64,000 bases of DNA, taken from NCBI RefSeq assembly GCF_000304355.2, contig NC_018227.2, positions 1,860,001 to 1,924,000 on the forward strand, in the 5' to 3' direction. The stretch comes from Methanoculleus bourgensis MS2. GTDB lineage: Archaea; Halobacteriota; Methanomicrobia; Methanomicrobiales; Methanoculleaceae. The notes below the pieces were generated by a model. The model had not been told where the DNA came from. It saw nothing but the letters and a program-made list of their open reading frames with translations, and made no database searches. The position numbers were made by a program, and so were the translations under genes. This document shows positions 16,737 to 25,446 of this stretch, one piece after another (position 1 is the first letter of the stretch; every line of letters begins with the position of its first letter).

Positions 16737-17360
16737 ATGCAGCTGCCACGAGGTCAGTTCCATCGTCTCATCAAGTCCACGACATCCCGTGCCCTGATAG
16801 AAGAGATGGGCTCAAAACGGTTTACCGGGATCTGCACGATCCTCCTTGGCAACAAGAGTGCTGTCCTGGTACTCAACGAAGGTCAGGTGGTGCTTGCCGA
16901 ATATGGGGGGATTAAGGGGCAGCAAGCACTTGAAAAGATCCATGACGGCGAAGAGGGCGAAGCAGCGGCAGAATTGAATCTCCTGACACCCGATCAGATA
17001 CAGCTCGCCCTGGAATTTAACCAGTCGTTCGCGATCGGAAACCAAACGGACTCCTCGCCGCGTAAGGCAGCCTCTGGAGGTGCGAAGCCGTCCGCCGGCC
17101 CGGGGAAGACCGGTGGGACGTCCGTCCCGAAACGTCGGCCGGAACCTCCCGCTGAGAGGCACCGGATCCCCATGCCCGGGGTGAAACCCGTGCGGGAGAC
17201 GACTGCAGCGCCTCCATCAGGAGATGACGAGATTAACACGCTCATCCGGAACATGGAGGAGATGGATGTTGAGGAACTCGTCAGTAGTTTCAGGGTGAAC
17301 TGCAAGGACATGCTCAAAAAGATCCACCTTGATCACCTCATCCAGGAGAAAGATACATAG
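16737..17360 (+). CDS. PATAN/DUF4388-like N-terminal domain protein, first gene of the MinD operon
   Basis: 207 residues, not recognised as a named family. The first ~95 residues have a pattern of strands with RFTGICTILLGNKSAVLVLNE and then GQVVLAEYGGIKG, reminiscent of PATAN/DUF4388 domains, which serve as protein-interaction adaptors in bacterial signalling. A proline/glycine/lysine-rich disordered linker (about 105-160) follows. It ends in a short helical region (INTLIRNMEEMDVEELVSSF). The same kind of N-terminal pattern recurs in the product of 22446-23126 beside the hydrogenase genes. It begins a three-gene operon with a roadblock-like protein and MinD. Soluble, and likely regulatory. 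Confidence 0.7.
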   Translation: MQLPRGQFHRLIKSTTSRALIEEMGSKRFTGICTILLGNKSAVLVLNEGQVVLAEYGGIKGQQALEKIHDGEEGEAAAELNLLTPDQIQLALEFNQSFAIGNQTDSSPRKAASGGAKPSAGPGKTGGTSVPKRRPEPPAERHRIPMPGVKPVRETTAAPPSGDDEINTLIRNMEEMDVEELVSSFRVNCKDMLKKIHLDHLIQEKDT

Positions 17361-17380
17361 ATACGGGAGCTGATAACGGA

Positions 17381-17896
17381 ATGGATTCAATAGGTATCAT
17401 CCAGATTTTCCTCTTGATCATCACAATAACAGTGGTGGCCGGGTTTGCCAGCGTTGTATACTTCCTTGGGGAGATCTATCGGGCTCTCACCAGGCCGGAG
17501 CCCGAAGCCTCCCCCGGCGTTACGAACGACCATGGAGCACCGGACCTCGCCGGGTCCGCGCCCCTCCCTAAAGGGATCGATCCCCGGAACGCCGGGAGTC
17601 TGGAGGAGTGTCTGGGCACGATCACTGAGAAGTACAACCTTGCGTCCTTCACACTGGCGACCGCAGACGGTCTCTTGATCGGCTCGACGAAAAGAGGTGC
17701 AGAGGACGAGGCAGCCAGGTACAGCTACCTCTACACACAGGGAACGTTGCAGGACGAGACCGGGGCGGAGCTCCTCGGTATCCCCCACCATGGGGAGACG
17801 GTAATCGGTATCGCCCGCCCTTCGGAGCCTCTCTCTCCCGAACTGGCGAGCGCACTCGAGCAGGACACCCGGGATGTCCTGCAACACTGGGTGTAA
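17381..17896 (+). CDS. Membrane-anchored roadblock/LC7-like protein
   Basis: 171 residues. An N-terminal transmembrane helix (IIQIFLLIITITVVAGFASV, residues about 6-30) is followed by a short polar, Pro-rich linker. A ~100-residue C-terminal domain begins at LEECLGTITEKYNLASFTLA and includes TADGLLIGS, the 'dGl.i.s' strand typical of roadblock/LC7 (MglB-like) domains. Such domains dimerise and regulate P-loop NTPases. The next gene, which overlaps this one's end as an open frame, encodes a MinD-type ATPase. I infer that this protein places that regulation at the membrane. Confidence 0.7.
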   Translation: MDSIGIIQIFLLIITITVVAGFASVVYFLGEIYRALTRPEPEASPGVTNDHGAPDLAGSAPLPKGIDPRNAGSLEECLGTITEKYNLASFTLATADGLLIGSTKRGAEDEAARYSYLYTQGTLQDETGAELLGIPHHGETVIGIARPSEPLSPELASALEQDTRDVLQHWV

Positions 17897-17933
17897 GACC
17901 GGTGAGATCAGGATACCAGCGGTGAGTGGTTAC

Positions 17934-18722
17934 ATGGTAAAAGTATACACAATTGCATCCGGTAAAGGCGGTACCGGCAAAACGACGGTCACAGCAAACC
18001 TGGGACCAATGCTGGCACAGTACGGGAAGAAGACATGCATCCTGGATGCCGACGTCGGGATGGCGAATCTCGGTCTCATCCTGGGACTTGAGAACCTGCC
18101 GGTGACCCTGCACGAGGTGCTGGCGGGCAAAGCGCGCGTCAGGGACGCCATCTACGATGGGCCGTTCGGTGTGAAGGTGGTGCCGTGCGGGCTTTCTCTG
18201 CAGGGTTTTCAGCAGTCAAGCCCGGATCGGCTGAAAGACGTTATGACCGACCTCGTGAGCGAGTTTGACATCCTGATCATGGACGCCCCTGCCGGGATAA
18301 GCAGGGACGGCGTTATCCCGCTGACAATCGCTGACGGGGTAATACTTGTCGTAAACCCTGAGATCTCCTCGATTGTTGATTCCCTAAAGACAAAGATCCT
18401 GACCGAGACGGTCGGTGGGCACGTTGAGGGCGCGATCATCAACCGGGTTGCCAGTAGCGGGGACGAGTTCAACCGCGCACAGATGGAGAAGCTCCTCGGG
18501 GTCAGGGTGCTCGGTGTCGTTCCGGAAGACCCGAACGTGCGGCGTGCGTCGGCCGGTCGGTCGCCGATCGTGGTGAAGTACCCGACATCCAGCGCATCGA
18601 GGGCCTTTAAGCGTATCTCAGCCGATGTAGCCGGTATCGAGTATGTTGAGGAGGAGGTGCCGGAGCCGCGGGAAGGTTTCGTCGATCGGCTGGCCCGGGC
18701 TCTCTTCCGGGTGAAGGCGTGA
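17934..18722 (+). CDS. minD: MinD/ParA-type P-loop ATPase
   Basis: A 262-residue SIMIBI-class ATPase. The deviant Walker A GKGGTGKTT is at residues 10-18, motif A' is DADVGMANLGL, and the Walker B/switch region is LIMDAPAGISRDG, all as in archaeal MinD. The C-terminus ends in a possibly amphipathic FVDRLARALFRVKA, like a membrane-targeting MinD helix. The ATG at 17934 is chosen because GGTGAG lies 7 bases upstream. MinD homologues position partners at membranes or poles. Here the adjacent roadblock-like membrane protein and the following hydrogenase operon make a dedicated role likely, an inference. Confidence 0.9.
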   Translation: MVKVYTIASGKGGTGKTTVTANLGPMLAQYGKKTCILDADVGMANLGLILGLENLPVTLHEVLAGKARVRDAIYDGPFGVKVVPCGLSLQGFQQSSPDRLKDVMTDLVSEFDILIMDAPAGISRDGVIPLTIADGVILVVNPEISSIVDSLKTKILTETVGGHVEGAIINRVASSGDEFNRAQMEKLLGVRVLGVVPEDPNVRRASAGRSPIVVKYPTSSASRAFKRISADVAGIEYVEEEVPEPREGFVDRLARALFRVKA

Positions 18723-18994: not shown

Positions 18995-19237
18995 ATGGAT
19001 ATACGTGTGGATAGGGACGCATGTGTCGGGTGCGGTCTCTGCGTCAAAGACTGTCCGATGCATGTGTACGAACTCCAGGACAATGTGAGTGTCCCGGTCA
19101 GCCCCAATAACTGTATGGGGTGTCTCTCCTGCCACGAGATCTGCCCGGCCCAGGCACTCGAGCACCGTGGCATCTATCCCGCCCGGCGGCACTATATCGA
19201 CATCAAGGTCTGTGAGATGCTCCGGAAGGTGGTCTGA
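18995..19237 (+). CDS. 2[4Fe-4S] ferredoxin, hydrogenase-operon electron carrier
   Basis: 80 residues with two cluster motifs: C10-x2-C13-x2-C16-x3-C20 and C40-x2-C43-x2-C46-x3-C50. It probably passes electrons between the hydrogenase small subunit and a soluble partner. It is the first gene of the operon. Its TGA overlaps the next ATG (TGATG), so translation is coupled. No flavin or F420-binding subunit is encoded beside it, so the final electron acceptor is open. Confidence 0.88.
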   Translation: MDIRVDRDACVGCGLCVKDCPMHVYELQDNVSVPVSPNNCMGCLSCHEICPAQALEHRGIYPARRHYIDIKVCEMLRKVV

Positions 19238-19800
19238 TGAGTGCTGGTTACATCGATGAAATGCATGAAGCCTTCCGTTCCGAGCTTGTCTACCGTGCTG
19301 AGGAGATCCCCCTCGAGTGCACACCAGGCCCCAAAGAGATGGAACAGACGCTCCATGGCGTGATGAAACTCAACGGCCTGGTCATCAGGTCGCTTGAAGA
19401 GATCGCAGGCAGAGGAGCAAACGCGGTCACGTACCGGGCCGGGAAGAAGTTCGGTCACGAGATCGCCAAGTACTTCCAGAAACGTGAAGACGTGGAAGGG
19501 GCGCTTCACGAGCTCTCCGACCTCCTGCGCGGCCAGTACTCCTTTGAAGTCTGGAAACCCGAGGATAAGGAGACGTTCATCATCGAAGAGAACGGTGAGA
19601 CCTTCATCTACCTCGTCTTCCATGACTGCATTGTCCGCCAGACGCTCAGGCGTAATGGTCTTGACCAGGGCGGCCCGCTCTGCCAGACTCTTTTTGGCTA
19701 TGTCGTGGGCGCGATCGAAGAGATCACCGGCCGGAAAGCCAAACTGGAGATCGTCCATACCGGCCCGAACGCCTGCCTGAAGAAACTGATCCTGAAATGA
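19237..19800 (+). CDS. V4R-like (hydrocarbon-binding-like) protein in the hydrogenase operon
   Basis: 187 residues, soluble. From about residue 45 it shows the V4R layout: NGLVIRSLEEIAGRGANAVTYRAGKKFG, then a strand-rich middle, and a C-terminal GGPLCQTLFGYVVGAIEEIT followed by HTGPNACLKKLIL, in which the two cysteines take the place of the conserved V4R cysteines. V4R domains bind small hydrophobic ligands or intermediates and are often sensory or assembly adaptors. Position between ferredoxin and the small subunit suggests a dedicated role in this hydrogenase. The function is not known, and the domain call is by pattern only. Confidence 0.6.
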   Translation: MSAGYIDEMHEAFRSELVYRAEEIPLECTPGPKEMEQTLHGVMKLNGLVIRSLEEIAGRGANAVTYRAGKKFGHEIAKYFQKREDVEGALHELSDLLRGQYSFEVWKPEDKETFIIEENGETFIYLVFHDCIVRQTLRRNGLDQGGPLCQTLFGYVVGAIEEITGRKAKLEIVHTGPNACLKKLILK

Positions 19801-19806
19801 GGCGGA

Positions 19807-20727
19807 ATGATGAAGATTGCTATTGAGGAACTGGCCGGGTGTTCAGGGTGCACGATCGCGGTGCTCGATCTCCACGAGATGCTCCTTGATGTCATCGAGG
19901 AGGCTGAGATCGTCTACTCTCCGGTGATCATGGACACGAAGGAGCCCCCTGAGGGCATCGACATAGCATTCGTGACCGGTGCCGTCCGGAACGAGGAGAA
20001 CCACGAACGCCTCATCAGGCTCCGGAAACGGGCAAAGACGCTTGTTGCGCTTGGGACCTGTGCCTGTTACGGCGGCATATCGGGTCTTTCGATGCTGAGT
20101 TCAAACGAAGACCTCTTCCAGTGCGTCTACCGGGAGGTGGAGACGGCTAAGCCCGACGGGGTTATCCCGACCGATGTGCCGCCGTTCCTCTACCGGGCGT
20201 TCGCGGTGGGCGATCTTGCAAAGATCGACTATTACATCACGGGCTGCCCGCCGAAGGAGGCGTTCTTAAAGAAGATCATCCCGGCGATGATCGCGGGGGA
20301 TACTCTTGAACTCTCGCGTAAATCGGTCTGTGCAGAGTGCGACAGGATCATGGGGCCGGTCGAGAACTGGTCCCTCTCGCGGCGGCACGAGGGTGTGCCC
20401 GACCGTGAGCACTGCCTGCTCGGGCAGGGTTATCTCTGCCTTGGGAGCGTCACTTTCGGCAGGTGCGGGGCGGCCTGCCCGAAGAACAACATCCCGTGCC
20501 ACGGGTGCAACGGCCCGTCGCTCGACATCCTCCGTGAGCCCTGCCGGGACATCTACAACATGATGGTGCGGAGGATTTCGGATCTCACCGATAAGCCGGA
20601 GAAGGAGGTGGAGAAGGAACTCTACGACGTCGCTCACACGATGTACGCCTTCACCATCGGGAGCCTGATCATGGAGGATAAGGAGACGTCAAAGATTCGC
20701 GATCTGGTAAAGGAGAGGGGAAGATGA
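19807..20727 (+). CDS. [NiFe] hydrogenase small subunit, group 3 (MvhG/FrhG-like)
   Basis: 306 residues. The proximal cluster ligands lie in ELAGCSGCTIAVLD (C12, C15), LGTCACYGG and TGCPPKE. The C-terminal half has CAECDRIMG, CLLGQGYLCLG, GRCGAACPKNNIPCHGCNGPS, consistent with further [4Fe-4S] clusters as in F420-reducing and Mvh hydrogenases. There is no Tat signal, so it is cytoplasmic. ATGs at 19807 and 19810 are both usable after GAGGCGGA. The stop overlaps the large-subunit ATG (ATGA). Group 3c versus 3a cannot be settled without comparison. Confidence 0.92.
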   Translation: MMKIAIEELAGCSGCTIAVLDLHEMLLDVIEEAEIVYSPVIMDTKEPPEGIDIAFVTGAVRNEENHERLIRLRKRAKTLVALGTCACYGGISGLSMLSSNEDLFQCVYREVETAKPDGVIPTDVPPFLYRAFAVGDLAKIDYYITGCPPKEAFLKKIIPAMIAGDTLELSRKSVCAECDRIMGPVENWSLSRRHEGVPDREHCLLGQGYLCLGSVTFGRCGAACPKNNIPCHGCNGPSLDILREPCRDIYNMMVRRISDLTDKPEKEVEKELYDVAHTMYAFTIGSLIMEDKETSKIRDLVKERGR

Positions 20728-22088
20728 AAGAGATCACGATAAGCCCGGTGACCCGGGTCGAGGGTCACGCCGGTATAAAGATCTTCCTCAACGAGCAGGG
20801 GGAGGTCGACTCGGCTCACTTCCAGGTTGTGGAACTCAGGGGGTTTGAGAAGTTCCTCGTCGGGGCGGCGATCGAGGAGGCTCCCCGGATAACGCCACGG
20901 ATCTGTGGCATATGCCCTTCGGCACACCACCTGGCGGCGGCGAAGGCGACCGACCAGATCTTCGGCGTCGAGCCGCCCGCGACCGGTAAGAAACTCAGGG
21001 AACTCCTCAATATCGGGCAGTTCATCCATTCCCACGCTCTCCACTTCTTCATGCTTGCGGCGCCTGATTTCATCCTGGGCTACGACGCGCCGGCAGAGGA
21101 GCGCAACGTCATCGGGCTTGCCCGCCATTCGCCCGAGATCGCGAAGAAGGCTATAGCGGTCCGGAAGTTCGGCCAGCGCCTGACTGAGGCGGTCGGCGGC
21201 AAACCCATCCATCCGGCAAACGCGCTCTCCGGGGGGATGTCGGCGCCGCTCACTGAGGGGAAGAGGGCCGAGCTGGTCACCATGGCCGATGAGGCGCTCA
21301 CAATCGCCCGTGAGGGGTGGGACCTCGCACGCGGTCTCCTCGACGGTGTCGATACCGGTGTCGGCGCTGTGGAGACCGGGTTCCTGGGTATGACCAGGCA
21401 CGGTCTCCACACGACCTATGAGGGGCCTGTTGCGGTGCTTGGGCCCGACGGGGGCAGGATCGGTTCGTTCTCGGGGGAGGAGTATACGAACTTCATCGAG
21501 GAGTACTCGGAGGACTGGTCGTACCTGAAATTCGCCCGGCTCAAGGGCGGGGATTACTACCGGGTCGGGCCGCTTGCCCGGCTTAATATCGTGGAGAAGA
21601 TGGGGACGGAGCATGCTGACGCCGCTCTCGCCGAATACCGCGAGCGGTTCGGTACCGTTACGCAGGCCACGCTTGCCTACCACCTGGCACGCTACATCGA
21701 GTTCCTCACCTCGTGTGAGCGGGCGGTGGAGTTGCTCTCCGATCCGGGCATCACCGGTTCTGATGTCAGGATCCCGGTGGAGAAGGTCGTGAACCGGCGT
21801 GGTATCGGGATCATCGAGGCTCCCCGGGGAACCCTGATCCATGACTACACCGTCAGCGAATCGGGCATCATTGAGCGGTGCAACCTCATCGTTGCGACCT
21901 GCCAGAACAACTACGCGATCGACCGGGGTGTGGAGGATATGGCACGCCGGGTGGTGGAGAACGGAACGTTGACCGAAGGGGCGGCAAACCGTATCGAGAT
22001 GATCATCAGGGCGTATGACCCCTGTATCTCGTGCGCGACGCACGCGATCGGACGGATGCCCCTCCGGATTGAGTTAGTCAGAAGATGA
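20724..22088 (+). CDS. [NiFe] hydrogenase large (catalytic) subunit, group 3 type
   Basis: 454 residues carrying the Ni-Fe site. The N-terminal L1 motif RICGICPSAHH gives C61 and C64, and the C-terminal L2 motif DPCISCATH gives C434, C437 and H440. The 14 residues after His440 (AIGRMPLRIELVRR) are the expected tail removed by a maturation protease. The start MKEITISPVTRVEGHAGI is the usual N-terminal hydrogenase signature. Neither the protease nor Hyp factors are in the window. It is longer than typical FrhA and close to MvhA. Neighbours include no FrhB or MvhD, so this is not a standard Frh or Mvh operon. Confidence 0.94.
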   Translation: MKEITISPVTRVEGHAGIKIFLNEQGEVDSAHFQVVELRGFEKFLVGAAIEEAPRITPRICGICPSAHHLAAAKATDQIFGVEPPATGKKLRELLNIGQFIHSHALHFFMLAAPDFILGYDAPAEERNVIGLARHSPEIAKKAIAVRKFGQRLTEAVGGKPIHPANALSGGMSAPLTEGKRAELVTMADEALTIAREGWDLARGLLDGVDTGVGAVETGFLGMTRHGLHTTYEGPVAVLGPDGGRIGSFSGEEYTNFIEEYSEDWSYLKFARLKGGDYYRVGPLARLNIVEKMGTEHADAALAEYRERFGTVTQATLAYHLARYIEFLTSCERAVELLSDPGITGSDVRIPVEKVVNRRGIGIIEAPRGTLIHDYTVSESGIIERCNLIVATCQNNYAIDRGVEDMARRVVENGTLTEGAANRIEMIIRAYDPCISCATHAIGRMPLRIELVRR

Positions 22089-22101
22089 TGAGGCGATAGA
22101 G

Positions 22102-22449
22102 ATGTTGAAACAGATCCTGGGAGAATTCCTGAAACTTGACGGGGTTACCGCCGCGGTTGTGGCGGGACGGGACGGCTTTGTGATCGAGAGTGTTGTTGCC
22201 GGCGACGTGGATGTCGAAGCCCTGGGCGCCATGGCGTCGACGGGCATGGGTACGTCTGAAGCGATGAGCAACGAGCTTGGGAAGGGGGAGATGCACCAGA
22301 TGATCGTCGAACTGGAGAACGGGCCCATCCTGCTCTCCCCGCTCTCTGAGGACGAGCTGATTGCCATTGTGGCGGACGCAAACGTCAATGTCGGGCGGAT
22401 CCGTTACGAACTGAAGAAGAACAAGGATCGAATAATCGCTGCTCTGTGA
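22102..22449 (+). CDS. Roadblock/LC7 (MglB-like) domain protein
   Basis: 115 residues, a single roadblock domain. It opens with LKQILGEFLKLDGVTAAVVAGRDGFVIES, the standard helix followed by two strands with a DGF/DGL turn. The middle helix (GTSEAMSNELGKGEMHQMIV) and the late PILLSPLSEDELIAIVADANVNVG strand pair complete the fold. Such proteins form homodimers that act as GAPs or scaffolds for NTPases. It starts 13 bases after the hydrogenase large-subunit stop and overlaps the next gene, so it belongs to the operon. Confidence 0.88.
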   Translation: MLKQILGEFLKLDGVTAAVVAGRDGFVIESVVAGDVDVEALGAMASTGMGTSEAMSNELGKGEMHQMIVELENGPILLSPLSEDELIAIVADANVNVGRIRYELKKNKDRIIAAL

Positions 22450-23126
22450 GACTGATGCTACCGGATGGCGTCTCACTCGGACGATTACAGGGGCCCCTTG
22501 CGGCCCTTGCTACCATCAGCCCTCGCTTTACGGGGGCGGTGCGCATCGACGGGTCCGGAGGGACCGGTTTTGTTCTGGTCCAGGGAGGGAACCCGTATGC
22601 GGCCGTTTATCAGGCAACCGGTGAGAACCTGGTCCTCAATGGGGACGAGGCCTACCGATACCTGCTCGACCGGCCGTCGCTCGATTACGAACTTATTGCG
22701 TATACTTCTGAGGAGACCGGGGCGGCCCGGGCGGTCTCCGAGGAGATCGGGTGCCTGATGAGCGGTGACGGCGCAGGGCCGGCCGCTTCTGCCGGGTCGT
22801 TGAGTGCGGGGTGCCTTGAGCATATAGCGCGGCAGCCGGGCGTCATTGCCGTCTCGGTCTTCCACGAGGGGTTTGCCCTCCAGTCACTGGGTTCCGCGGA
22901 CTTTGAGCAGGTGGCTGCGGTCGCCGAGGATCTGCTCCGCGCCGGCACCCGTATCACAGGGGATATGGATATGGGTGACCTCTCCCAGGTGATCCTCGAG
23001 ACGCCGGTGGGGAAACTTATTATCGCACCCTACAGGGATCTCTCGGTCTGCGTACTCGCAAAGCCTGGTGCCAACCTTGGCCTGATAAGACTCTCGATAC
23101 GGGGTATGCAAGACCAGGCGCCCTGA
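22446..23126 (+). CDS. PATAN-like/roadblock two-domain fusion
   Basis: 226 residues with two parts. Residues ~1-95 (RFTGAVRIDGSGGTGFVLV, then GGNPYAAVYQATGENL) repeat the strand pattern of the 16737 product's N-terminus. Residues ~115-220 look like a roadblock domain (LEHIARQPGVIAVSVFHEGF, GKLIIAPYRDLSVCVLAK, ANLGLIRLSI). A GTG at 22446 overlaps the previous TGA; an ATG at 22455 is the alternative. As the last operon gene, it joins in one protein the two domain types that are separate genes in the MinD operon. The domain assignment is by pattern, not profile search. Confidence 0.72.
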   Translation: MRLMLPDGVSLGRLQGPLAALATISPRFTGAVRIDGSGGTGFVLVQGGNPYAAVYQATGENLVLNGDEAYRYLLDRPSLDYELIAYTSEETGAARAVSEEIGCLMSGDGAGPAASAGSLSAGCLEHIARQPGVIAVSVFHEGFALQSLGSADFEQVAAVAEDLLRAGTRITGDMDMGDLSQVILETPVGKLIIAPYRDLSVCVLAKPGANLGLIRLSIRGMQDQAP

Positions 23127-23658: not shown

Positions 23659-24060
23659 ATGAAGAAAGGTTTTGTTGCAAACATCGAGAAGGATACAGTA
23701 GAGAACACCGATTTCCGCAGGGTCCTCTATACGGGGAAGTTCAGCCAGCTTGTGCTGATGTGCCTGAAGCCCGGTGAGGAGATCGGCGAGGAAGTTCATG
23801 ACGACGTCGACCAGTTCTTCCGGTTCGAGGAAGGCGAAGGGGCAGTCGTGATCGACGGCGTGAAGCACGTCGTCAAGGACGGTAGCGCCGTGGTTGTGCC
23901 GAGCGGCGCAAATCACAACGTCCTGAATACCTCAAAGACGGCAAACCTCAAACTCTACACGATCTACTCGCCGCCTGAGCACCGGGACAAGGTCGTGCGG
24001 AAGACCCGCGAAGAGGCCATGGCCCAGGAAGAGCATTTCGACGGAAAGACGACAGAGTAA
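23659..24060 (+). CDS. Cupin-domain protein
   Basis: 133 residues, one beta-barrel cupin. Cupin motif 1 is EEVHDDVDQFFRFEEGEG, with a His and a Glu in the metal-ligand positions, and motif 2 is VVPSGANHNVLN with a His. The metal set suggests a dioxygenase-like, isomerase or sensing role; the reaction cannot be told. It stands alone, preceded by GGGAGGTTGTGAT as ribosome-binding sequence and followed after 47 bases by the convergent IS110 transposase. Confidence 0.88.
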   Translation: MKKGFVANIEKDTVENTDFRRVLYTGKFSQLVLMCLKPGEEIGEEVHDDVDQFFRFEEGEGAVVIDGVKHVVKDGSAVVVPSGANHNVLNTSKTANLKLYTIYSPPEHRDKVVRKTREEAMAQEEHFDGKTTE

Positions 24061-24093: not shown

Positions 24094-25446
24094 TTCGTAT
24101 GAAAATGTTAAAGGGGATGGGTGGCCCTCTTTGCCCCCACCCCCTTGCCGGCCGACTTCTGGCTCTCGGGCGAGTAAATTCGGTACCCCGCGTTCAACAG
24201 GATCTCGGTCGCATCATCGATCGAGATCTTCGACAAGGTGGCGCGTGCCGGGAGTTTCCGCACTCTCTGGACACCCGGTTCGACGTAGAGTTCTCGGTTC
24301 ACCAGGAGATGCCAGAGGATAGTGAGGATCTTCCGGGCAAGAGCGACAATTGCCTTATTCCGCCCCCTTCGGAAGGCGATACGCCGGAAGAAGCGGGAGA
24401 AGACGGTATCCGTAGTCCGACTTGCCGCCTGGGCCACCTGCACCAGGATCCAGCGGAGACTCTTTGACCCCTGTTTTGTGATCTTGCCACACACCAGGGT
24501 ATCGGCAGATTGATAGACTGATGGTGCCAGTCCCGCCCAGGAAACCAGACGATCCGCAGATGAGAAGTCCCGGACATCACCCAGTTCTGCGAGAATAGTT
24601 GTCGCCGCAGTGATGCTGATCCCCGGCACCGAGGTACAAATCGGGAGTGCCTCCATCTGGGAATCCTCGAGTGAGGCAAGGATCAGCTCATCCAGATGAG
24701 CGATCTTCTCCTCAATCTCCTCAAGCAGGTGCAACTGGGTCGTGAGGAGATGCAGCTGGGTAGGAGAGAGAGGGCTATCCTGGAGGATCTCTCGGAGTTG
24801 ATCAGCACGGCGGAGAATCAGGGGTGAGGGGATAGTCGCGAGGGTGGCCTCCAGATCCTTCTGCTCAGCGATGCCGGCGAGCAAGTGACGACCCGATTTC
24901 CCGAAGATGTCTTTCAGCGCTACGTTCAGGCGGATACCGGCACTATCCAGGATCTTATGAATCCGGTTCTTGATGGTTGTCCGGGTTCTCACCAGTGTTT
25001 CCCGGTTGCGGGTCAGATCCCGGAACTCACGATCGCGCCGGGGAAAGATCCGGGAAGGCCGGATCAACCCGTGGAGAGCGAGCTCGGCAATCCATCGGGC
25101 ATCATTCATGTCCGTCTTGCGCCCCGGGATACTCTTGATCTGGCGCGCGTTGGCAACGATCGTCCGGATATCTGACTCGAGTTCCAGAAAGAGGCGATAC
25201 CAGTAGATCCCGGTCGATTCCATGGCAACGACCTCACACCCTTCAGCAAGCACAAGGTCTTTTAGTGCGAGAATCCCATGAGGAGTGTTGTGGAAACGGT
25301 GCTGGGAGTATTCTCCAGATCGCGAGAGAATGCAAACCTGGAGAAACATCTTATGGACATCGATTCCACACACCTTGGTTAGTTCCTTCATAACACCTCA
25401 GTGACTGGTGGGGTAGATCCAAAATGCTTCAGGAGCCTTTTCGTAT
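24094..25446 (-). mobile_element. IS110-family insertion sequence (approximate limits)
   Basis: The transposase gene is flanked by the 7-base direct repeat TTCGTAT at 24094-24100 and 25440-25446, which may mark the recombination core or be chance. Terminal inverted repeats are not evident, as is usual for this family. If a bridge RNA is encoded upstream of the gene, the right limit could be as far as about 25650. Confidence 0.6.
24108..25391 (-). CDS. IS110-family transposase (DEDD recombinase)
   Basis: 427 residues, apparently intact. The RuvC-like N-terminal half has the acidic residues in CGIDVHKMFLQV, AMESTGIYWYRLF and GRKTDMNDARWIAE. The C-terminal Transposase_20 half has SVPGISITAATTILAELGD and RLVSWAGLAPS, where the catalytic serine lies. 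These enzymes move the element by RNA-guided recombination using a bridge RNA encoded in the element. The stop lies 47 bases from the convergent cupin gene. No frameshift is seen, so the copy may be active. Confidence 0.95.
   Translation of the reverse strand: MKELTKVCGIDVHKMFLQVCILSRSGEYSQHRFHNTPHGILALKDLVLAEGCEVVAMESTGIYWYRLFLELESDIRTIVANARQIKSIPGRKTDMNDARWIAELALHGLIRPSRIFPRRDREFRDLTRNRETLVRTRTTIKNRIHKILDSAGIRLNVALKDIFGKSGRHLLAGIAEQKDLEATLATIPSPLILRRADQLREILQDSPLSPTQLHLLTTQLHLLEEIEEKIAHLDELILASLEDSQMEALPICTSVPGISITAATTILAELGDVRDFSSADRLVSWAGLAPSVYQSADTLVCGKITKQGSKSLRWILVQVAQAASRTTDTVFSRFFRRIAFRRGRNKAIVALARKILTILWHLLVNRELYVEPGVQRVRKLPARATLSKISIDDATEILLNAGYRIYSPESQKSAGKGVGAKRATHPL

Follow-up and report, generated by a model that had tools for sequence, protein, structure and literature searches.

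What does a small protein do when its gene sits between those for a ferredoxin and the small subunit of a [NiFe] hydrogenase? We considered this question for a gene, which we call X, in a window of 64,000 nucleotides (the whole stretch of DNA that was analyzed). The window is part of a single-contig, 2.79-Mb genome (G000), whose closest named relatives are Methanoculleus. We confirmed the open reading frame of X, which has an ATG start. We also confirmed the gene order in a preliminary description of the locus, which had placed this frame inside a [NiFe] hydrogenase operon, between the ferredoxin and the small subunit. The main features, by position in the window, are:

16737..17360, + strand: DUF4388-like protein, which opens the adjacent MinD run (PF14332 below its cut-off, E = 0.018; synteny)
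17381..17896, + strand: roadblock-fold protein of 171 amino acids with a long N-terminal helix (AlphaFold, pLDDT 79; Foldseek)
17874..18722, + strand: archaeal MinD-type ATPase (TIGR01969, 325.2 bits, cut-off 201.75; synteny)
18995..19237, + strand: 2[4Fe-4S] ferredoxin of 80 amino acids, which opens the gene run (Fer4 family matches; synteny)
19237..19800, + strand: X, a predicted V4R-fold protein of 187 amino acids (fold model, alignment, profile comparison, linkage)
19681..19776, + strand: proposed metal-site stretch of X, from C149 to C180, with E171 and H174 (alignments A1 and A2; by-eye likeness to DmpR)
19807..20727, + strand: [NiFe] hydrogenase small subunit, VhuG-like, with a C-terminal REPCRD segment (Oxidored_q6; VhuG model)
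20724..22088, + strand: [NiFe] hydrogenase large subunit, VhuA-like, with RICGIC, DPCISCATH, and a C-terminal tail (NiFeSe_Hases; VhuA model)
22102..22449, + strand: Roadblock/LC7 protein 1, 115 amino acids (PF03259, E = 8.2e-17; synteny)
22446..23126, + strand: Roadblock/LC7 protein 2, 226 amino acids, faster-evolving (PF03259, E = 8.1e-07; synteny)

The genes from 18995 to 23126 form a single tight run on the + strand: ferredoxin, X, small subunit, large subunit, roadblock 1, and roadblock 2. The start of X overlaps the stop of the ferredoxin gene by one base, and just 6 bases separate X from the small subunit gene, which starts at 19807. The small and large subunit genes overlap by 4 bases, as do the two roadblock genes. 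The ferredoxin beside X has two four-cysteine motifs, CxxCxxCxxxCP.

An antisense reading frame of 188 amino acids (19192-19758, - strand) covers X almost entirely; we take it to be a by-product of codon bias. Behind the operon are a cupin gene (23659-24060) and, just past it, a transposase-like frame (24108-25391, - strand), which is presumably IS110-type.

The fold and conserved residues of X

The preliminary description had likened X to V4R domains. Structure prediction agrees. An AlphaFold model of X, built from 28 sequences, has a pLDDT of 71.4 and a pTM of 0.64, with residues 133-143 below 50. Foldseek found 26 matches to this model with E ≤ 0.001, including palmitoylated TRAPPC3, the phenol-sensor domains of MopR, DmpR, and PoxR, and human TPC6. 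With VIA-align, the model aligned to a chain of the Bet3-Trs33 structure (Z = 11.4, rmsd 3.2, 130 aligned residues) and to the archaeal V4R protein MJ_1460 (2oso: Z = 9.7, rmsd 7.1, 138 aligned; 2osd: Z = 9.2, rmsd 4.0, 126 aligned). H-NOX chains appeared lower in the lists of fold matches. This led us to consider H-NOX-type heme binding, which we rejected, as we found no supporting evidence.

Profile-profile comparison gave probabilities of 96.2-96.7% for X against V4R stretches, versus 0.09-0.36% for six control alignments. The V4R set comprised 33 stretches from the same phylum that were chosen by their cysteine spacing, so the cysteine pattern is there by construction. The controls were taken from the X operon and the neighboring one; the hhalign E-values are for single pairs, not database-wide.

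In Pfam, PF02830 (cut-off 31 bits) does not match the window's X at E up to 1, and it matches just 2 of 26 X family members (best E = 1.1e-4). A search of NCBIfam with X gave no match, and sequence searches of solved structures, with X alone or as a profile, returned nothing useful. In other words, the likeness to V4R holds for the fold and for the profile comparison and not for the PF02830 score, and it is the V4R fold, rather than a different one, that the comparisons support. From the model and the profiles, we predict that X is a divergent member of the V4R/Bet3 fold superfamily, with a helix-rich N-terminus, a sheet, and a C-terminal helix with strands.

The top Pfam match of X is to a different family, L-2-amino-thiazoline-4-carboxylate (ATC) hydrolase (PF14196, E = 0.00041, 21.6 bits, residues 54-149), and 14 of the 26 family members also match it, with E no higher than 1. 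X might therefore be an enzyme of this family, but this is very improbable. The score is below the cut-off of 28.1 bits, and the profile probability is 14.5-51%, compared to 96-97% for V4R. Also, the V4R and ATC alignments match each other with 96.5% probability, so the PF14196 match adds no function. (The ATC alignment includes 15 of the 28 loci L197-L224; the other 13 were dropped because the frame was noise-like or was X itself.) We rejected ATC hydrolase as the function of X because there is just the weak PF14196 match and V4R is the closer profile. The mutual match of the PF02830 and PF14196 alignments, both from the same phylum, suggests that the two families may form one superfamily. 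A weak match of X to Rcc01698_C lies below the PF14196 match.

Across an alignment of 28 sequences (A1), C28, C131, C149, C180, H40, H74, H129, H174, D130, and R134 are invariant, and E171 is nearly so. In a second alignment of 26 sequences (A2), which reaches genomes of groups f14, f10, and f9, only R134, C149, G154, and C180 are invariant, and C131 is nearly so. H174 is kept across A2 except in three copies of a second X gene (X', see below), and E171 is replaced by isoleucine in one f9 sequence. The C-terminal pattern of two cysteines in the preliminary description probably corresponds to C149 and C180, although A1 has four invariant cysteines.

C149, E171, H174, and C180 may form a structural metal site. 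Sites of this kind have three or four cysteines (C/E/C/C or C4); X keeps C149, E171, and C180, and has H174 in place of the middle cysteine. In passages of PMC7264223, the zinc ligands of DmpR are Cys151, Glu172, Cys177, and Cys185. By eye, their order and rough spacing resemble those in X, with histidine for one cysteine; the spacing is not identical (22, 3, and 6 residues in X versus 21, 5, and 8 in DmpR). The V4R cysteines of MaMsvR (C206, C232, and C240, from parts of PMC3729527) similarly resemble C149, H174, and C180 in order and rough spacing, again by eye. In Thor-TRAPPC3, zinc is bound through four cysteines (passages of PMC10933270).

Distribution of X and the hydrogenase that it accompanies

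X is present in 77 of 199 genomes from the order Methanomicrobiales, and in four of six families among the matches listed. Its identity in 47 named relatives is 68-96%. Across 392 genomes of the phylum, 44 have matches to X with E < 1e-15, and in every one of these 44 strong matches, the next gene downstream, in the same orientation, encodes the small subunit; the gap is -1 to 36 bases. (This count omits four weak matches, namely those in G204, G223, and G381 and the second match in G025.) Two of the 47 named loci begin inside X; a ferredoxin gene is upstream of X in all 45 whose contig reaches that far, and the small subunit gene comes next in all 45 whose contig extends past X.

A wider profile adds seven weaker, standalone relatives of X from five genomes (E = 2e-13 to 1e-7). 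In the stretches fetched around these seven, some of which end at contig ends, there are no homologs of the hydrogenase, the ferredoxin, the roadblock proteins, or MinD. The H-x-GPNAC ending is missing from the six whose frame was examined. The preliminary description had asked if X always accompanies this hydrogenase or if the linkage is lost in relatives. All 44 strong matches accompany it, and loss is confined to these distant relatives.

In the three f9 loci (L091 3618-4437, L092 9090-9889, and L093 8944-9778), X is a tandem pair, and the gene order is X'-X-small subunit-ferredoxin-large subunit. The upstream copy, X', has a C[IV][IV]R motif, a cysteine at the C149 position, and no H-x-GPNAC ending. 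The pair suggests a possible heterodimer. The X-linked large subunits of these loci end exactly at DPCLSCASH or DPCLSCSTH, without a C-terminal tail. (The C-terminal tail of the large subunit is normally cleaved during maturation.)

The window's large subunit has the two CxxC motifs that are expected to bind nickel (RICGIC and DPCISCATH), and so do the X-linked relatives that we examined. Compared to solved structures, it has E = 4.4e-118 to Mvh (5odc) and 2e-129 to 7t2r. The VhuA and VhuG models score 402.6 and 233.5 bits, or about half of their cut-offs (800 and 450). The VhuA cut-off is strict: it is reached in none of 17 genomes, and the canonical Methanocella-like pairs score 496 and 507.6 bits. 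(Labels of loci and genomes as Methanocella-like were inferred, mostly from kinship.) The strongest VhuA-like match in the window's genome is in the X operon (402.7 bits), and the next scores 117.3 bits. The sole MvhD match in this genome is about 121 kb away, so the operon is not linked to MvhD/HdrABC.

X follows one group of small subunits. All 39 genomes with the closest small subunits carry X: 35 from the order, with at least 74% identity to the window's, and four Methanocella-like genomes, with 59-61%. In the X-carrying genomes of f10 (two) and f9 (three), small-subunit identity is 41-44%. Apart from f9 and f10, small subunits with 33-46% identity among the matches listed do not have X alongside. 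We built trees from 17 X-linked and 9 unlinked pairs, which are a subset of those found. (The row win_f1 is L004, a close relative, and not the window.) The small-subunit tree (26 sequences) carries long-branch warnings; in it, a branch with support of 100/98, recovered in 99% of 200 bootstrap trees, divides the 17 X-linked proteins from the 9 unlinked ones. The large-subunit tree requires two changes in the linkage to X, with the X-linked rows of f9 and f10 outside the main group, so it is not proven that the association as a whole arose once. There, the core X group is nearest (91/92) to three unlinked rows, including the canonical Methanocella-like Mvh. Among the small subunits that we examined, six X-linked ones have a C-terminal segment (REPCRD and its relatives) that is missing from five unlinked ones.

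Methanocella-like genomes carry a canonical Mvh pair as well: G206 and G215 encode, besides the X-linked enzyme, another VhuA/VhuG-like pair near MvhD. In G206, this other pair is about 6 kb from MvhD, beside HdrA/HdrB/HdrC-like frames (labeled by eye, in L226), and has no X, roadblock, or MinD; a ferredoxin query matched only iron-sulfur regions of larger frames nearby. The X-linked genes keep company other than MvhD-HdrABC, which does not disprove coupling to MvhD-HdrABC.

How well conserved is X? Mean identities to the window for X, the small subunit, and the large subunit are 93.5, 90.8, and 86.9% in Methanoculleus-like loci; 64.3, 59.2, and 53.4% in Methanocella-like loci; 35.1, 37.9, and 44.3% in f10 loci; and 32.3, 39.3, and 38.5% in f9 loci. 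For another 28 loci from Methanomicrobiales, the averages are 74.7% for X and 78.0% for the small subunit. In 3 of 5 groups, then, the small subunit is the better conserved of the two. Both X and roadblock 1 have higher identities than the large subunit in Methanomicrobiales and Methanocella-like loci.

Roadblock proteins and MinD near the operon

Of 57 loci that are long enough to judge, 52 have roadblock 1 on the strand of X, no more than 3.6 kb downstream. All five exceptions are from f9 or f10, and the three f9 loci have a relative (29-31% identity) elsewhere in the stretch. Where at least 6.5 kb of sequence flanks X on each side (39 loci), a MinD gene lies no farther than 8 kb away in 30 and was not found nearby in the other 9. 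MinD is upstream in 16 loci and downstream in 14, so the link between X and MinD survived rearrangement.

The window's genome has three matches to Robl_LC7, of which two are in the X operon. Two MinD matches in this genome exceed the cut-off, and one of these is beside the operon. The other MinD is less than 1 kb from the third roadblock match (G000:C1:166585-168434, in L225). The model of the 171-amino-acid roadblock-fold protein has four Foldseek matches, to p14/MP1 and MglA-MglB/MglB entries (E = 5e-4 to 9e-4). Its long N-terminal helix is probably a membrane anchor.

A trio of DUF4388-like, roadblock, and MinD genes that resembles 16737-18722 of the window was found again in G003 (L231 5838-8257), near RNA polymerase-like frames (also labeled by eye), which makes the trio a recurring module. 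Five loci (L034, L036, L037, L038, and L039) have a divergent pair of roadblock genes on the minus strand, upstream of the ferredoxin; the three of these with long flanks (L034, L037, and L039) have no MinD nearby.

Possible roles of X

The analysis shows the gene, its fold class (by model and profile) and conserved residues, its linkage to one group of small subunits, and its conserved roadblock and MinD neighborhood; the role of X is inferred from these. Strict linkage and a position inside a structural operon favor a stoichiometric subunit. The fold points to either a dimeric scaffold that is stabilized by metal or a sensor of ligands or redox state. Together, linkage, position, and fold suggest docking or gating of the hydrogenase by way of V4R and roadblock proteins. 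We tentatively favor the view that X is an accessory subunit with a V4R fold and a metal site, which docks or gates an Mvh-like [NiFe] hydrogenase that is soluble and comes with a ferredoxin of its own. X would probably be a dimer, with C149, E171, H174, and C180 as its structural metal site. Most likely, it would dock the small subunit and the ferredoxin onto a roadblock protein of its own operon. This docking would then position or gate the hydrogenase at some site in the cell, through the neighboring MinD ATPase and the roadblock-fold protein that has the N-terminal helix. A broader version, in which a TRAPP-like kit (V4R-fold and roadblock proteins) and MinD position or switch a ferredoxin-linked [NiFe] hydrogenase that is distinct from the bifurcating Mvh, is unlikely.

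The preliminary description had suggested a small-molecule sensor or an assembly factor. Instead of docking the hydrogenase, X might gate it allosterically, as a sensor of redox state or of a small molecule. We consider this somewhat unlikely. X shares its fold class with the phenol sensors MopR and DmpR, and MsvR of methanogens is proposed to use V4R cysteines as a redox switch; C149, H174, and C180 of X resemble those of MaMsvR, as described above. C28, H129, D130, C131, and R134, which are also invariant in A1, could serve a sensor too. But the Pfam search showed no DNA-binding or output domain in X, and X is tied to one hydrogenase (44/44). That strict linkage, along with the invariant cysteines, would also fit a dedicated factor for maturation or assembly of the hydrogenase, for instance of its small subunit or ferredoxin. 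This is improbable, because, in Methanomicrobiales and Methanocella-like loci, the conservation of X is similar to that of the catalytic subunits, and because the f9 loci have two tandem X genes while their large subunit has no C-terminal tail to remove.

Alternatively, the hydrogenase could be an Mvh that feeds a remote, bifurcating MvhD-HdrABC complex, with X and the ferredoxin as an adaptor. Passages in the literature describe related enzymes this way: Memar_1007-1008 as the F420-non-reducing hydrogenase (Mvh) of M. marisnigri (PMC2686161), MCP_2492-2493, with a remote MvhD, as Mvh (PMC3146512), and a bifurcating 3c hydrogenase as expressed by a Methanoculleus MAG (PMC11201294). We infer that these are the X-linked genes, because each is the organism's Mvh-like pair and, for M. 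paludicola, from the rough gene order. The lack of another strong VhuA-like match in the window's genome and the position of the core X group in the large-subunit tree also fit an Mvh. Yet MvhD is about 121 kb away, the scores are about half of the VhuA and VhuG cut-offs (although canonical Methanocella-like Mvh also misses the VhuA cut-off), and G206 and G215 have a second pair near MvhD as well as the X-linked enzyme. Overall, this reading is quite unlikely.

The relevant passages of those three papers do not mention X or the roadblock genes, and a term look-up in PMC2686161 found neither "roadblock" nor "V4R". Similarly, "hydrogenase" does not occur in PMC2253512 (term look-up). Passages on V4R or roadblock proteins in PMC2614490 and PMC3149612 concern Ignicoccus and have no tie to a hydrogenase operon. 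We found no publication that combines V4R, hydrogenase, and Methanomicrobiales, and among the matches listed (titles and the starts of abstracts), none connects V4R or roadblock proteins with the hydrogenase operon of a methanogen; both searches mainly covered literature outside subscription journals.

How H2 is coupled to heterodisulfide and ferredoxin in Methanomicrobiales is described as unsettled (passages of PMC5563889 and PMC3087415). The Methanoculleus enzyme that was filled in as a bifurcating 3c hydrogenase (in parts of PMC11201294) is presumably the X-linked one. So a hydrogenase whose gene company hints at something else may have been taken for an ordinary electron-bifurcating one. 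If it forms a separate complex with ferredoxin, V4R, and roadblock proteins, then models of electron flow in Methanomicrobiales need to change. The operon is also a prokaryotic case of V4R-fold and roadblock proteins together; in eukaryotes, these folds occur in the TRAPP and Ragulator complexes (passages of PMC10933270). If the positioning reading is true, this would be a spatially organized redox enzyme, with prokaryotic V4R and roadblock modules side by side.

Among known hydrogenases, the closest is the Mvh/Vhu F420-non-reducing [NiFe] hydrogenase (group 3c), which provides the nearest curated models for both subunits and whose nickel-binding motifs are intact here. Unlike Mvh, the X-linked cluster has no MvhD/HdrABC; it has its own 2[4Fe-4S] ferredoxin, X, and roadblock genes, and the C-terminus of its small subunit is different. 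The roadblock fold and archaeal MinD side by side recall Roadblock/LC7-GTPase systems (MglB-MglA) and the MinD/ParA positioning ATPases. Here, however, they are beside a hydrogenase operon, the NTPase is MinD and not MglA, and a role in positioning is putative. Finally, X shares a predicted fold and a C...E..[CH]...C pattern with V4R proteins such as MsvR and with TRAPPC3 (Bet3), including TRAPPC3 from Thorarchaeota; in passages of PMC10933270 and PMC7264223, the pattern residues are four cysteines in Thor-TRAPPC3 and C/E/C/C in DmpR. X differs from these proteins in that it is not recognized by PF02830, has histidine for one cysteine, has an N-terminal extension with C28, has no DNA-binding domain, and is encoded in a hydrogenase operon.
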